Assembly: GCF_947496775.1 (NCBI RefSeq)
Contig: NZ_CANMDU010000002.1
Span: forward strand, 62,001 to 126,000
Direction: 5' to 3'
Length of the DNA stretch: 64,000 nt
Origin: an uncultured Maribacter sp.
GTDB lineage: Bacteria; Bacteroidota; Bacteroidia; Flavobacteriales; Flavobacteriaceae
A program made the position numbers and the translations under genes. Of this stretch, positions 19,688-26,421 are shown one piece after another (positions within the stretch are counted from its first letter, which is position 1; every line of letters starts with the position of its first letter). Below the pieces are notes generated by a model that searched no databases, was not told the origin of the DNA, and was given only the letters and a program-made list of their open reading frames with translations.

Positions 19688-20497
19688 TTACTTTTTAACT
19701 CTAAATGTACCCGTAGAAGCATCAAACATAACAGTGTCTTGTGGAAATAGACTGTCAAAGTGTTTTTGTTCTATTAATTCGCACGGCTGTCCAAAGGGAT
19801 TATCCTTGCCATTTATAAGAAGCATTTTATCGCACAGTTGAATGGCTAATTCGATTTCGTGTGTAGTAAAAAGAATGGTTTTTTGAGTGGTGTATGCAAT
19901 TGATTTTAAAAGCTTTAATATGTTTGCCTTGTGGTAGAGGTCTAAATGTGTTGTAGGTTCATCTAACAACATAATAGAGGTGTCTTGCGAAAGAGCTCGT
20001 GCAATCATTACACGTTGCATTTGGCCGTCGCTGAGCTCGTAGCATTTTTTATGTTTAAGGTCTTGTAAACCTACTTTTGTTATAGCGTCTTGTATTGCGT
20101 TTGTATCTTTATCGCTTAAACTACCTATCCAATTAGTGTAAGGTTGTCTTCCCAGAGCTATTAGTTCTAATACTGTTAAATTTTTAGAAGCAATTTTCTC
20201 CGTAAGGACTAAACTAATTTCCAAGGCTAGTTCTTGCGGCGTATGCTTACTTATGTTTTTGTTACGTATATGAAGTTCTCCTGCTAATGCTTTTTGAACG
20301 TTCCCAATAGTTCTTAAAAGGGTAGATTTTCCTGCGCCATTAACACCAATAATTGCAATAAGTTCTCCTGTATTAGCAGTAAAACTAATAGAAGATCCAA
20401 TTTGTGTATGCTGCTTTTTTGCGGTATACCCAATTTTAAGGTTTTGAGCAGAAAGGACGCTATGTTGATCAGGATTATTTATAAGTTTATTTTTTAT
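19688..20497 (-). CDS. btuD: B12-type ABC transporter ATPase with no canonical start codon
   Basis: Cytoplasmic ATPase of the cobalamin importer. The frame opens right after the permease stop (20503-20501, same frame) and encodes 269 residues if translation starts at the ATA at 20497-20495. Walker A GVNGAGKST is at residues 51-59, the signature LSDGQMQR near 150, Walker B SIMLLDEPTTHLD and the H-loop TTHEIE follow. No ATG, GTG or TTG occurs in the first 91 codons; the first TTG (20224) lies behind Walker A, so a conventional call would give a 178-residue, non-functional fragment. Symbol by locus context and homology; iron-siderophore FecE is the alternative. Confidence 0.82.
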   Translation of the reverse strand: MKNKLINNPDQHSVLSAQNLKIGYTAKKQHTQIGSSISFTANTGELIAIIGVNGAGKSTLLRTIGNVQKALAGELHIRNKNISKHTPQELALEISLVLTEKIASKNLTVLELIALGRQPYTNWIGSLSDKDTNAIQDAITKVGLQDLKHKKCYELSDGQMQRVMIARALSQDTSIMLLDEPTTHLDLYHKANILKLLKSIAYTTQKTILFTTHEIELAIQLCDKMLLINGKDNPFGQPCELIEQKHFDSLFPQDTVMFDASTGTFRVKK

Positions 20498-20500
20498 AGA

Positions 20501-21532
20501 TTAAAAAATCATTTTTCGTTTACGTACTAATAACCAAATAACTACTGGAGCTCCAATAATAGAGGTAATAGCATTTATAGGTAATACACTAGCCGAACTC
20601 GGTAATTGAGCAACGGTATCGCAAAGCAACATTAAAATTGCCCCATAAAGTAAAACAGCAGGCACTAATATTTTGTGGTTTGTAGTGTCAAAAATTTGTC
20701 TTGTTAAATGCGGTACTGCTAAACCTATAAAAGCTATAGGGCCTGCAAATGCGGTTATACCACCGGCTAATAATCCCGTAGCAAGGATTATTAAATATCT
20801 CATTTTTTTTATGTTTATCCCCAAACTACGGGCATAGTTTTCTCCAAGTAACAAGGCGTTTAGTGTTTTAATAGAGACAATACTTAAAATTATTCCCAAA
20901 AGGCATAAGCATAACAGAATGCCGAGTTGTTCCCATGTTAAATTACCAATACTACCAAACGACCAATATACATATTGTTGTAATTTTTCAGCATTAGTAA
21001 AATAAGACAAAACACTTACAATTGCTGCCGTAATACTTCCAAACATAAGCCCTATAATTAGTAGAGTCATAGAATCCTTTACTCTAGAAGCTACAATTAG
21101 TACAGAAAGTAATACCATAAAGCTACCAATACTAGAAGTAATGGCTAAAGAAAGGTTAGAGATTATACTAAAAGAAAATAAACTAGTGAATAAAGAAGAC
21201 CCCATTATTAAAAAAGCAACCCCTAAACTTGCTCCGGAGCTTATACCTAATACAAAAGGACCAGCTAAAGGATTTCTAAAAAGAGTTTGCATAAGCAATC
21301 CGCTTAAAGCCAGTCCGCTACCCACTATAATTGCAGTAAACGCTTTAGGAATTCTGTAATTCCAGATTATATAATTCCAAGAATTGTTGGTTGTAGTACC
21401 ACCGAAAACAGAATTTATAGTATCGGAAAAAGGAATAGAAACAGAACCTAAGCTAATATTTATTCCAAAGAATACTACTAATAGCAAAGACAATACTAAG
21501 AAAGCACTTATGTATGTTTTGTTTGGTTTCAC
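20501..21532 (-). CDS. btuC: FecCD/BtuC-family ABC transporter permease
   Basis: A 343-residue polytopic inner-membrane protein with about ten membrane segments. Family markers are NYRIPKAFTAIIVGSGLALSGLLMQTLFRNPLAGPFVLGISSGAS (about 53-97) and the coupling-helix and late-loop region GPIAFIGLAVPHLTRQIF (about 273-290). It starts at the base after the binding-protein stop and ends 3 nt before the ATPase frame. The cobalamin riboswitch and BtuB/BtuG-like genes next door point to vitamin B12, not iron, as cargo; sequence alone cannot separate the two. Confidence 0.88.
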   Translation of the reverse strand: MKPNKTYISAFLVLSLLLVVFFGINISLGSVSIPFSDTINSVFGGTTTNNSWNYIIWNYRIPKAFTAIIVGSGLALSGLLMQTLFRNPLAGPFVLGISSGASLGVAFLIMGSSLFTSLFSFSIISNLSLAITSSIGSFMVLLSVLIVASRVKDSMTLLIIGLMFGSITAAIVSVLSYFTNAEKLQQYVYWSFGSIGNLTWEQLGILLCLCLLGIILSIVSIKTLNALLLGENYARSLGINIKKMRYLIILATGLLAGGITAFAGPIAFIGLAVPHLTRQIFDTTNHKILVPAVLLYGAILMLLCDTVAQLPSSASVLPINAITSIIGAPVVIWLLVRKRKMIF

Positions 21533-22678
21533 TTATTGCAAAGGTTGATAAAAAAACGGTTTATAGTTTGGTAAAATTTCTGGGTGAAATATAGAAATTA
21601 AATCTTTTAGGACAATATCCGGTCGGCTAGGGGCTAGTTCAAAAAATAATAAGCCTCCAGTTTGGCCTTTGGTATTTCCAAAAGTATATATGTTTTTATT
21701 CTTATAAGCTTTAAATTGGGAGTAATGAGGGCTACTTTCTTCCATTTGCTTGTAGGATGTAAATTGAGAAGGAGAAACCCAATAGTCAGCGTTTTGCCCA
21801 ATAGCTAGTACTTTTTCCCAACTCAAAGAGAGGCTGCCAGTCTCTTGATTGTCTTTCCATAAGTAATTCGTGTTTGCATCTTTTAAGTATTGCGCAGCCC
21901 AACTTTTTCCTCCCGGTAAATACCATATATCTTTAAACATGGCACCACTTAAAACGGTACTTTTTTTATCCGCTTTAGATGCTAAAGATTTTACCTTAAG
22001 ATATTCTTTTTCAATAGTGTTAAAAATACTATCTGCTTTTTTTTCTTGATGAAAGAAAGGAGCAAAAAATTTAATCCATTCTGCCTTTCCCAAAGGTGTT
22101 TGCTCTGTCCAATCTCCATTGTAAACAATAGGTATATTGGCTGTTTCTAAGGTTTTATATGCTTTATTTTGGTTATCTATTCCAAAGCCAATGACTACAT
22201 CTGGTTGTAACTCTAACGCTATTTCTGTATTCATAGATTCGTTTTTTCCTAACTCTTTAACTTTTTTACTATCTATTCTTTTTCTAGTAGATAAAGAAGA
22301 TACATAATCGGTATTAGGGAAACCTACTAAGGTAGATTCTACACCTAAGGATTCTAATATCGGAATATGGGTGGTAGAGGTAACAATAATTTTTTTTATT
22401 GGAGTAGGAATAATGGCATCGAATTCTTCTTTATTTAAGGAGACGGAGGCCATTTTTTCTTTTGGAACAAGAGCATATTTAAACCCATTTTCGGCATTTG
22501 GCCATGGAGAGGTAACTTCGAGTATTGTATGCCCAGAATCTTGTTTTTTTATGGTAAATCCATTTGCATAACGTAGTGTTGATTTTGTTTCTGTGAGCTC
22601 TACATTGGTTGTTTTGTCTACTTGCCGCTTACAGGAAAAAGTAATTAAAAACAATGTAATTAATATGTAATTTTTCAT
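21533..22678 (-). CDS. btuF: ABC transporter substrate-binding lipoprotein (BtuF-like)
   Basis: A 381-residue lipoprotein: signal MKNYILITLFLITFSC with lipobox Cys16. Two Rossmann-like lobes (periplasmic-binding type III) are visible: IIVTSTTHIPILESLGVESTLVGFP in the first and VLSGAMFKDIWYLPGGKSWAAQYL with the ALELQPDVVIGFG strand between. It hands corrinoid to the permease. First gene of the btuF-btuC-btuD unit, with a minus-strand TAATTTTG -7 box (22701-22708) before it. It is not itself preceded by a riboswitch on its own strand. Confidence 0.88.
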   Translation of the reverse strand: MKNYILITLFLITFSCKRQVDKTTNVELTETKSTLRYANGFTIKKQDSGHTILEVTSPWPNAENGFKYALVPKEKMASVSLNKEEFDAIIPTPIKKIIVTSTTHIPILESLGVESTLVGFPNTDYVSSLSTRKRIDSKKVKELGKNESMNTEIALELQPDVVIGFGIDNQNKAYKTLETANIPIVYNGDWTEQTPLGKAEWIKFFAPFFHQEKKADSIFNTIEKEYLKVKSLASKADKKSTVLSGAMFKDIWYLPGGKSWAAQYLKDANTNYLWKDNQETGSLSLSWEKVLAIGQNADYWVSPSQFTSYKQMEESSPHYSQFKAYKNKNIYTFGNTKGQTGGLLFFELAPSRPDIVLKDLISIFHPEILPNYKPFFYQPLQ

Positions 22679-23173: not shown

Positions 23174-25003
23174 GTGATGAAAAATATATTTTCAATTTTA
23201 GTACTATTCAGTCTAGCTATAGTAACGGCGCAGAAAGATTCCATTATTACTCTGGATGAAGTTGTAGTGTCTGATGTTCGAGTAAAACGTTATGCCGATG
23301 GGCATAAAGTAACAGTTATTAAGGACAGTATTATACAACGCGATAATGTGTTTTTAACTTCATTGTTGACCTTTAACTCTAATATTTATTTTAAAGAAAA
23401 TGGTTTTGGAATGGTTTCTTCCCCTGCTTTTAGAGGAACCAATGCCTCGCATACAGCTGTCATTTGGAATGGAATTAATATAAACTCTCAATTAAACGGA
23501 CAAGTAGATTTTAATACAATAAATCCTTTTAATTATAATTCTTTAGGCATTCGAAGTGGTGGAGGAAGTGTACAATATGGTTCTGGTGCAATAGGCGGCA
23601 GTGTTCATTTAAATAATGATTTAAAATTTGAAAAACACTTTGAGAATCAAGTTTCTGTTGGTTATGGTAGTTTTGAAACTAAAAAAGTAAACTTCAATCA
23701 AAGTTTTGGAAACAAAAAAGCATCATATAGTTTTGGAATTAATTATAATAGATCAAATAATAATTACAGGTATATAAAGACTGATGAAATAAACAAAAAT
23801 GGGGAATTTGAAAATCTTAATGTAAATTTAAATGCAGGCTATGTGCTTACAGAAAAACAGGTTGTAAAACTGTACCACCAAAGTTTTATAGGGGATAGAA
23901 ATTTATCAGGAAATATTTTTGTCTTAGGAAGGAGTAAGTATAAGGATAATCACTATCGTACACAACTAGAATGGGGGCGGTTTGAAAAAAAAACCATTTC
24001 AAAATTTAAATTGGCTTATCTACAAGAGGAATTTAAGTTTTTTGAAAACAAAGATTCGGATATTTATTCTTTTGGGAAAGTATCTAATTTTTTAGCAAGG
24101 TATTCCTTAGATGTAAATTTTTCAAGAGCTTTTAGGTTAAATGGATTTTTAGAGTACAATAATTTTCTGGGTAAAGGAGGAAGTTTTGGGAATCCCAAAC
24201 GAAATGACTTTTCGGCTACAGCACTTATAAAACATACTATTTCTCCAAAGTCTTCTTATAATTTTAGTTTAAGACAAGATTTTTCTTCGGATTTTTCTAG
24301 TCCATTGGTTTTTTCTTTAGATGGTAGGTATGATGTAAGCCCTCATTATAAACTGCAATTGAATGCCTCCAAAAATTATAGAACACCAACATTTAATGAT
24401 CTTTATTGGCAACCAGGAGGTAATTTAAATTTGATTCCTGAAAAATCTTACCAGATAGATATTGGGAATCGATTAGATTTACGAAGAGTGTCAATGAATG
24501 TTAACGGTTATTACATTGCCACGAAAGATATGATTAAATGGCTTCCTAGTAATGAAGGATTTTGGACACCAATAAATATTGACGATGTACAAATTTATGG
24601 GGTAGAAGGGGAAATTTCAGCTACTTATCCTATTCAAAGAAAGCACCAAATAGATTTTAAAGCTCATTATTCATATACAGTTTCTGAGGATAAAGAAACA
24701 AAGCAACAATTAATTTATGTGCCTTTTCATAGAGGAAATGCCTCTGTTACATATAAAATAGCTGGTATAAACTTGTTTTATCAACATTTGTATACTGGCG
24801 GTGTCTCTATTATTGGAGGAAAATTAGATGAATATCAAATAGCAAATATTGGAGTAACATATTCAAATAAGCGGGTTAATAAGGCTTTAACCTATACTTT
24901 GGGAGTTACTATAAATAATATTTATAATACGTATTACGAAAATATAGCATTACGTCCAATGCCAAACAGAAACATTCAAACACAATTAATTTTAAATTTT
25001 TAA
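23174..25003 (+). CDS. btuB: TonB-dependent receptor, BtuB-like
   Basis: Outer-membrane receptor of 609 residues. Signal MKNIFSILVLFSLAIVTAQ (starting from the second codon). The TonB box region ITLDEVVVSDVRV is followed by a plug domain (about 45-150; SSPAFRGTNASHTAVIWNGININS, then GSVQYGSGAIGGSVHLNN) and a 22-strand barrel ending in the aromatic C-terminus NRNIQTQLILNF. The upstream cobalamin riboswitch and the downstream BtuG-like protein make cobalamin or another corrinoid the likely ligand. Two bases separate it from the next gene. Confidence 0.9.
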   Translation: MMKNIFSILVLFSLAIVTAQKDSIITLDEVVVSDVRVKRYADGHKVTVIKDSIIQRDNVFLTSLLTFNSNIYFKENGFGMVSSPAFRGTNASHTAVIWNGININSQLNGQVDFNTINPFNYNSLGIRSGGGSVQYGSGAIGGSVHLNNDLKFEKHFENQVSVGYGSFETKKVNFNQSFGNKKASYSFGINYNRSNNNYRYIKTDEINKNGEFENLNVNLNAGYVLTEKQVVKLYHQSFIGDRNLSGNIFVLGRSKYKDNHYRTQLEWGRFEKKTISKFKLAYLQEEFKFFENKDSDIYSFGKVSNFLARYSLDVNFSRAFRLNGFLEYNNFLGKGGSFGNPKRNDFSATALIKHTISPKSSYNFSLRQDFSSDFSSPLVFSLDGRYDVSPHYKLQLNASKNYRTPTFNDLYWQPGGNLNLIPEKSYQIDIGNRLDLRRVSMNVNGYYIATKDMIKWLPSNEGFWTPINIDDVQIYGVEGEISATYPIQRKHQIDFKAHYSYTVSEDKETKQQLIYVPFHRGNASVTYKIAGINLFYQHLYTGGVSIIGGKLDEYQIANIGVTYSNKRVNKALTYTLGVTINNIYNTYYENIALRPMPNRNIQTQLILNF

Positions 25004-25005
25004 AA

Positions 25006-26421
25006 ATGAAAATCAAACACTTTATGTTAACAGCGGCTTTAGCCTCATTAGTACTTTCATCTTGTAGTGAAGACGATGAGCAAATGCCAGGAACAATAGG
25101 AATAACTACTGCACAAGATTCTTATGAAGAAGGAGCTGGTACTGTTGCAGTAGTCATTACAGCTTCGGATGTTTATGATGAGGATGTAACCATTAATTAT
25201 GAAGTCTCTGGTACAGCTACGTCTAATGAAGATTTTACTGCTTTGTCTGGTACAGCTATTTTGGTTGCAGGAGAAACAAGTGTAGAGGAAAGTTTAGTTC
25301 TTATAGATGATGAAGATGTAGAGCCATCAGAAGACCTTATTTTAACAATTACATCTACAAGTAGCTTACAAGGTATTATCGGAACTAATAATACAGTAAC
25401 TTTAACAATTACGGATAATGATTCTTATCCTTTTGAGAATGGTATATTGGTTAGTCATGAGGGTAATTTTGGACAAGGAAATGCATCTATTTCTTTTGTA
25501 TCCAGCGATTTAGAAAATATAGAAAACGGTATTTATAAATCTGTTAATGGAGTCGATGCCTGGGGAGATAATGCTCAAAGTATAGCTTTCAATGGTGATA
25601 TGGCCTACGTGATTATGAACGGTTCTCAAAAAATAGAAGTGGTTAATCGTTATACTTTTGAATCGGTAGCAACTATTGGAGGTCCAAGTGAATCTGATTT
25701 CTTAAACCCGCGTTATATGGCTATTGCTAATGGGAAAGGTTATGTAACAAACTGGGGAGATGGTTCTAGTACAGAAGATGATTATGTTGCAGTAATTAAT
25801 TTAGAAACTAATACTGTTGAATCTACAATTTCTGTGGTAGAGGGACCAGAAAAAATTGTTGCTTACAATAGTACAGTTTATGTTGCTCAACAAGGAGGTT
25901 GGGGAGAAAACAATGTTGTTACAGTTATAGATGCCACTACAAATACAGTGGAGACAACAATTACAGTTGGTGATAGACCAAATTCTTTACGGTTAGATGC
26001 TGATAATAATCTTTGGGTTATTTCAGGAGGAAACCCTTCTTGGACAGGAAATGAGACAGCTGGGCAAATGGATAAAATTAATACAACTGATAATACCGTT
26101 ACAAGCACATTAAACTTTGCCGTAACAGAGCACCCAGGAAATTTAGAGGTAGATGGGGCTAATCTTTATTATTATATGTCTGGTTCTGTTTATGAAATGG
26201 AAGTTACTAGTACAACACTACCAACTGCTTCAGAAATTACAGGACTTAGCTTTTATGATATGGCAGTTATTAATGGGAAACTCTATGGTGTAGATGCTAA
26301 AGATTTTGTTAGTAATGGTTCTTTAGAGGTATATGACCTTACAGATAATTCTTTGTTAGCTTCTAAAGAAGTATCTATTATTCCTGGAGGAATTTATTAT
26401 AATGGTTCCGCGGAAAGATAG
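25006..26421 (+). CDS. BtuG-like surface lipoprotein: Calx-beta domain plus YncE/DUF5074-type beta-propeller
   Basis: A 471-residue lipoprotein. The signal ends in LVLSSCS (Cys20) and an acidic EDDEQ stretch, typical of surface export. A Calx-beta-type immunoglobulin-like domain fills about 30-140 (YEVSGTATSNEDFTALSGTA, then VEPSEDLILTI). A beta-propeller follows from about 150 to the end, with repeats such as AVINLETNTVESTISV and TVIDATTNTVETTITVGDRP. Propellers of this kind next to BtuB in gut Bacteroides (BtuG) bind cobalamin very tightly and pass it to BtuB. Here it is downstream of btuB under the same riboswitch, so the same role is inferred. The added Calx-beta domain probably acts as a spacer. 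Confidence 0.82.
   Translation: MKIKHFMLTAALASLVLSSCSEDDEQMPGTIGITTAQDSYEEGAGTVAVVITASDVYDEDVTINYEVSGTATSNEDFTALSGTAILVAGETSVEESLVLIDDEDVEPSEDLILTITSTSSLQGIIGTNNTVTLTITDNDSYPFENGILVSHEGNFGQGNASISFVSSDLENIENGIYKSVNGVDAWGDNAQSIAFNGDMAYVIMNGSQKIEVVNRYTFESVATIGGPSESDFLNPRYMAIANGKGYVTNWGDGSSTEDDYVAVINLETNTVESTISVVEGPEKIVAYNSTVYVAQQGGWGENNVVTVIDATTNTVETTITVGDRPNSLRLDADNNLWVISGGNPSWTGNETAGQMDKINTTDNTVTSTLNFAVTEHPGNLEVDGANLYYYMSGSVYEMEVTSTTLPTASEITGLSFYDMAVINGKLYGVDAKDFVSNGSLEVYDLTDNSLLASKEVSIIPGGIYYNGSAER

Follow-up and report, generated by a model that had tools for sequence, protein, structure and literature searches.

The 64,000-nucleotide window (the whole stretch of DNA that was analysed, from an uncultured Maribacter of a genus that has Maribacter vaceletii and uncultured Maribacter as its closest named relatives) carries on its minus strand three adjacent genes whose products contain, in a row, ABC_tran, FecCD permease and Peripla_BP_2 binding protein domains (Table 1). 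Because a cobalamin riboswitch and the gene for a BtuB-like receptor adjoin this binding protein/permease/ATPase row, the operon is likely to be a B12 importer, its substrate being assigned from the genomic context. In gene order (binding protein, permease, ATPase), in domain content and in the adjacent riboswitch and receptor it resembles the BtuCDF/FecBCDE importers, but its proteins fall below every NCBIfam equivalog cut-off: none of the three reaches that for BtuC, BtuD or BtuF, the permease matching best to BtuC (NF003001; 219 of the 334 bits needed), the ATPase to FecE (181.5 of 375 bits), and the binding protein giving 22.2 of 234 bits against BtuF. The permease GTG follows the binding-protein TAA directly and in the same frame (21530-21535), and all three operon genes lie in one frame. 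Directly behind the receptor gene is that of a DUF5074 beta-propeller protein with a Calx-beta domain (25006-26421, plus strand), possibly a surface partner in B12 uptake.

Table 1. Features of the putative B12 uptake locus, in window coordinates
Feature	Position	Strand	Evidence or remark
ABC ATPase (BtuD/FecE type), 264 aa from the proposed start, plus stop	19688..20482	-	
TTH (H-loop)	19867-19859	-	
Walker B with DEPT	19975-19952	-	
ABC signature LSDGQMQ	20035-20015	-	
TTG, first standard-type codon in frame	20222..20224	-	After Walker A; unlikely start
Walker A GVNGAGKS	20347-20324	-	
Proposed near-cognate start ATA	20480..20482	-	Column -8 conservation among relatives
Spacer of 18 nt, permease stop to proposed start	20483..20500	-	Holds the ATA (20497-20495) of the first-pass annotation
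A run at -13 to -8 before the proposed start	20490..20495	-	Flavobacterial initiation context
BtuC/FecCD-type permease	20501..21532	-	GTG start directly behind binding-protein stop
Periplasmic binding protein, BtuF-like	21533..22678	-	PF01497, 95.5 bits
Cobalamin riboswitch RF00174	22918..23142	+	Upstream of divergent TonB receptor; 104.9 bits, E 3.2e-25
TonB-dependent receptor, BtuB-like	23174..25003	+	TIGR01779, 95 bits (below cut-off); PF00593

The ATPase frame (20500-19688 of the minus strand, closed by a TAA at 19690-19688) is open, its product scores 108.6 bits against ABC_tran (PF00005; curated cut-off 25), and all four motifs are present. It contains no ATG, GTG or TTG before Walker A, and the frame, the motifs and the Pfam score uphold the description in the first-pass annotation of an intact ATPase without a standard start; the window holds no conventional in-frame start upstream of Walker A that would remove the anomaly. 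The permease stop (TAA, 20503-20501) is followed, in the same frame, by TCT ATA AAA AAT.

Where, then, would translation of this gene, here called btuD, begin? We compared 216 junction loci, 204 of them distinct, from three sets as follows: a genus set of eight genomes (the Maribacter vaceletii clade), a family draw of the 130 best-matching of 164 genomes with a match (the weakest 34 were left out, and two belong to the genus set as well), and the 80 top-ranking of 517 named relatives, of which 68 are distinct from the other sets. Codon columns were counted from the conserved Val of VLSAQNL (GTC, 20458-20456 in the window). The gene is found in all eight genus genomes, in the other seven at 62-83% identity, and none of the eight has a standard start before the ATPase domain; the comparison of the junction in related strains that had been proposed earlier thus leaves the anomaly standing. 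Among the 204 distinct relatives, 59 have no ATG, GTG or TTG from column -16 to column +1 (19 of the 130 family genomes, 34 of the 68 distinct named relatives and all 8 of the genus, with two rows shared). Because the named relatives were ranked by their similarity to the window, the proportion 59 of 204 should not be read as a frequency in the family, to which the 19 of 130 from the family draw comes closer.

These 59 rows were picked regardless of what stands at column -8, and at that column 57 of them have AT[ACT] (24 ATC, 17 ATA and 16 ATT) and two have GTC; such AT[ACT] codons occur in six of the rows at column -9 and in two at column -7. Base 1 of column -8 is A in 57 rows and G in two, base 2 is T in all 59, and base 3 is C in 26, A in 17 and T in 16 (a third-base G being excluded by how the rows were picked), and the codons on either side have no comparable base pattern in the same rows. 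The same column holds a standard codon in 94 of the 204 relatives (66 ATG, 19 GTG and 9 TTG), out of 145 that have a standard-type codon in the stretch. We considered the alternative that column -8 is a conserved hydrophobic residue (Ile, Met, Val or Leu) and not a start, and rejected it from codon choice: across the 204 rows the Val codon at -8 is mostly GTG (19 of 22), unlike that at -10 (1 of 24) or at 0 (4 of 53). Column -8 is therefore taken as the start column, and the putative near-cognate start that it holds is homologous to the ordinary starts of other genera. The GTC at this column in two genomes (L014 and L032), a codon known from Streptomyces sigR, is uncertain in both.

Within the genus, bases 1 and 2 of the start codon are invariant and base 3 differs in 0.57 of pairs, and codons -13 to -9 and -7 to -4 vary freely at every position. 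The corresponding invariance of bases 1 and 2 among the 62 near-cognate rows is circular, those rows having been assigned by an ATH there, and the independent base figures are those of the eight genus members and of the 59 rows picked only for having no standard codon. Five of the rows assigned a near-cognate start, additional to the 57, also hold a standard-type codon nearby and are ambiguous; with these included the start codons are ATC in 26, ATA in 19 and ATT in 17, which departs from the usage of Ile codons inside the gene (ATT 0.54, ATA 0.29, ATC 0.18), the rows being related. The nearest in-frame stop upstream lies 1-36 codons away (median 6), and is one codon away in 8 of 57. Starts at columns 0 or +1 (L041, L059 and L155) were assigned by rule and are possibly wrong, and L155 has ATC at -9. 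The rows are phylogenetically related.

The same examination of btuC, btuF and rmuC, under a rule that is lenient in that their anchors lie deeper inside the protein, found no row lacking a standard codon before the anchor (0 of 188, 0 of 60 and 0 of 93, respectively, against 59 of 204 for btuD); 10, 123 and 1 control rows were skipped, as their alignments start too deep or there is no upstream stop in the locus. We also scanned 240 ortholog-like ORF pairs, from 380 kb of the source genome and 400 kb of a congener, and in both genomes btuD is by a wide margin the ORF whose first standard codon lies deepest in the conserved alignment (86 and 65 codons). In 52 of the 240 pairs this codon lies at least 5 codons inside the alignment in both members, most of these being an ATG shortly after a conserved upstream stretch. 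The first 61 codons of ORF 212998 (67 and 32 codons) lie over an opposite-strand frame, which we take to be panB; ORF 241347 is presumably prfB, whose frame is normally split; and in ORFs 328737 and 98061 an ATG follows after 26 and 24 codons. With two of the other cases set aside by these presumed names, btuD alone remains unexplained among the 240 pairs. A class-wide search of 247 genomes gave 37 with a match, and the 29 loci examined (6 of them from the same family, and some with a long stretch examined) all have a standard-type codon.

These observations make it very probable that btuD is intact and that its translation starts at the near-cognate ATA at 20482-20480. An ATA start had been suggested in the first-pass annotation, and that part of its proposal stands; its position, 20497-20495, is five codons too early. 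The earlier ATA is not conserved, being CTA in the nearest relative, and we prefer 20482-20480 because it is homologous to the ATG, GTG or TTG of other genera and is ATA, ATT or ATC in relatives. It is from position, conservation, homology to standard starts, upstream context and a parallel in infC (the last two are described below) that we infer production of the protein from this codon.

The alternatives fare poorly against the same comparison. The assembly is a draft in 69 contigs, and an error at 20495 turning an ATG into ATA had been entertained, yet we give it almost no credence, because all eight genus genomes and 59 of 204 relatives, from separate assemblies, are without a standard codon at the same place. 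A permease-ATPase fusion, which had also been proposed by way of reading through the permease TAA, could arise in that way or by a programmed frameshift, and in the window the two genes do share a frame with a single TAA between them. Relative to the permease, however, 56 near-cognate genes lie in frames 0, 1 and 2 in 18, 27 and 11 cases, so about one third share the permease frame, which is the chance level. Within the genus the frame is 0 in the window and +1 in L002-L005, and in L006-L008 another in-frame stop precedes the ATPase. The spacing, moreover, exceeds 35 nt in 27 of the 56, and a fusion would give column -8 no reason to be AT[ACT]; we regard it as very improbable. We think it just as hard to accept that a truncated ATPase is made from the internal TTG at 20224, the first standard-type codon in frame, or that the gene is decaying: the truncated product would be without Walker A, the region from the conserved Val to Walker A is, in the genus, most variable at codon position 3 and least so at position 2, and the three nearest relatives are 76-83% identical.

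Tight coupling of the ATPase start to the permease stop, another suggestion made from the window, is not general, since only 1 of 56 near-cognate starts lies less than 10 nt from that stop, with 28 at 10-34 nt, 22 at 36-130 nt and 5 beyond (distances above 200 nt may reflect a misplaced permease end). Most Arenibacter loci (L145, L146, L153, L154, L158, L159, L164, L167 and others) have about 100 nt between the permease stop and the near-cognate start, and a stretch 'aataacttag' recurs in their spacers. Standard ATG starts mostly adjoin or overlap the permease stop: at spacings of 4 nt or less there are 71 ATG, 9 TTG, 2 GTG and 1 near-cognate start, and at larger spacings 30 ATG, 19 GTG, 6 TTG and 53 near-cognate starts. 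We rejected an argument from these spacings for selection of weak starts, because the difference is not significant on independent pairs (7.8 versus 2.1 of 14, median p 0.11; 4.9 versus 2.1 of 10 when overlaps are removed) and because a -1 overlap with TAA itself imposes ATG.

The nucleotides upstream of the near-cognate starts are rich in A. Of 57 near-cognate genes, 0.89 have A at -12, 0.79 have A at -11 and 0.79 have a purine at -3; the share with A-12 is 0.88 among the 43 genes whose start stands 14 nt or more from the permease stop. With the ambiguous rows included, A-12 at such spacings occurs in 0.89 of 46 near-cognate and 0.37 of 43 standard starts, a difference that is not significant on independent pairs (3.0 versus 0.2 of 5), as is also the case for two or more A at -13 to -11 (2.1 versus 0.9 of 5). 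In the window leader the positions -13 to -8 and -6 to -4 are all A, and -3 is C, not a purine. In Flavobacterium johnsoniae, A at 0, -3, -6, -12 and -13 is reported as a positive determinant of initiation in the consulted parts of PMC6847099; the near-cognate btuD starts share with that context A at -12/-13 and -3 and an A as the first base of the codon; near-cognate starts are absent from the same parts (PMC6847099). The A-rich leader may be the counterpart, by analogy, of an extended Shine-Dalgarno sequence in bacteria without that pairing.

The gene for initiation factor IF3 offers a parallel within the family and served as a positive control. We collected 51 infC loci (the 30 best-scoring of 98 matches, 20 chosen loci and that of the source genome), and in Flavobacteriaceae ATA stands at the start motif (N-terminal IAIR) in 49 of the 51, with no other codon there; of the remaining two, the stretch retrieved for L316 was too short, and in L318 the motif was missed. 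The infC of the source genome itself (contig C12 near 2592) opens with AAT ATT GAA GTC ATA GCA ATT AGA after a stop, and in locus L222 a TTG lies in frame upstream of the ATA. Flavobacteriaceae ribosomes thus probably initiate at AUA for infC. Elsewhere infC starts with ATT in E. coli and ATC in Streptomyces (PMC5472188, in part) and with AUA in Staphylococcus aureus (PMC13009471, in part). Like infC, whose flavobacterial version itself has ATA, btuD has a conserved near-cognate AUH start, but infC has one codon in all scored loci and encodes the discriminating factor IF3, whereas the product of btuD is the ATPase of a transporter, and the third base of the btuD start codon varies between A, C and T. 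We also considered, and rejected, an IF3 variant restricted to the near-cognate species, because in the infC loci inspected the N-terminal type of IF3 goes with the clade whatever the btuD start codon; the standard-start genomes G057 and G018 share this type, and G087 nearly so.

How has the start evolved? On a FastTree tree of ATPase and permease there are at least 19 changes between near-cognate and standard starts, against a mean of 54.8 with shuffled labels; the putative near-cognate start is heritable, with repeated gains or losses. Sorted by genus, the named rows that lack a standard codon are Arenibacter (14), Maribacter (4), Cellulophaga (3), Galbibacter (2), Kordia (2), and Ulvibacterium, Muriicola and Cerina (1 each), with the others unclassified, and the ambiguous rows add Zhouia, Pelagihabitans and Maribacter thermophilus. 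Standard-type starts are assigned to 9 named Maribacter rows, and other Maribacter, for example M. luteus and M. polysiphoniae, have ATG. The predicted near-cognate start is an inherited feature of btuD across a large section of the Flavobacteriaceae around Maribacter, Arenibacter and Cellulophaga, and it occurs in scattered other genera. Parsimony over 128 ATN rows gives about 17.7 changes among A, C and T at the third base, 5.0 to G and 2.3 from G, and the share of G at four-fold sites is 0.148. As reconstructed, the third base is almost neutral within near-cognate lineages, and ATG lineages hold their G.

Mechanistically, the ordinary initiator tRNA would read ATA as fMet through the first two bases; initiation at AUA, AUU or AUC would be weak and, as with infC, subject to IF3 discrimination; and the A-rich upstream context would probably compensate in part, like the extended Shine-Dalgarno sequences of Staphylococcus. 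It is possible, and we advance it tentatively as the less likely course, that btuD and infC form a small IF3-gated set in which the AUH codon keeps ATPase synthesis low and ties it to the ratio of IF3 to ribosomes. There is about an even chance that the codon is a real start whose third base is merely tolerated, translation need being low and the codon drifting among AUA, AUU, AUC and AUG without selection or IF3 control, which is a variant of the near-cognate start and not an alternative to it. The 17.7 changes among A, C and T against 5.0 to G are, by our own estimate, near the expectation from the G share of 0.148. AUG rows, on the other hand, keep their G (2.3 changes from G in the 128 rows), so such tolerance would be confined to certain lineages, and the A-rich upstream context suggests compensation. 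The third-base pattern supports tolerance as much as selection for weakness.

On its sequence btuD would be a near-cognate-start gene of a known kind, with no standard codon at the homologous position and one conserved column, and would join infC, ccpN, cvfC1, rnhC and sigR; what the open-access literature matches listed do not report is the gene itself, the breadth across genera and the drifting third base. In the consulted parts of PMC13009471, conserved starts in Staphylococcus include AUA in ccpN (also in Bacillus subtilis) and AUU in cvfC1; the conserved AUA and AUU starts of S. aureus come with extended Shine-Dalgarno motifs, and in reporters for three such starts expression in poor medium was roughly one tenth of that from AUG. 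These genes and btuD have in common a conserved AUA or AUU outside infC and an upstream sequence that aids, or in btuD would aid, a weak codon; in ccpN and cvfC1, as far as those parts go, translation was demonstrated and help comes from an extended Shine-Dalgarno motif, whereas the btuD start is a prediction from sequence and has an A-rich context in bacteria that do not pair through Shine-Dalgarno sequences. Listeria has, in the sections consulted of PMC13068326, fixed non-canonical starts in six conserved genes, among them rnhC with ATC; these too are fixed ATH starts in a few core genes, but within one species, and btuD is one gene in many genera with a changing third base. Streptomyces sigR, from the consulted portion of PMC5472188, starts with GTC in 32 of 34 species and GTT in 2 and is repressed by IF3. 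Like btuD it is an operon gene other than infC with a conserved non-standard start; it differs in its extensive ribosome-binding site, in its GUC/GUU codon, and in that its repression by IF3 was shown, whereas that of btuD is a conjecture. Neither a near-cognate btuD start nor ATA in flavobacterial infC is reported among the open-access literature matches listed.

Few near-cognate starts outside infC have been characterised in bacteria, and those described in the sources consulted in part are aided by Shine-Dalgarno sequences or lie within one genus or species. Gene-finding programs that accept only ATG, GTG and TTG as starts would probably shorten or overlook btuD in many marine Flavobacteriaceae. 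A transporter gene with AUA, AUU or AUC in dozens of species from a group without Shine-Dalgarno initiation, its third base able to drift, would be a natural experiment in start-codon fidelity. If the proposals above are true, the A-rich leader would do the work of the extended Shine-Dalgarno motif elsewhere, and gating by IF3 would be a translational layer beside riboswitch control of B12 uptake.
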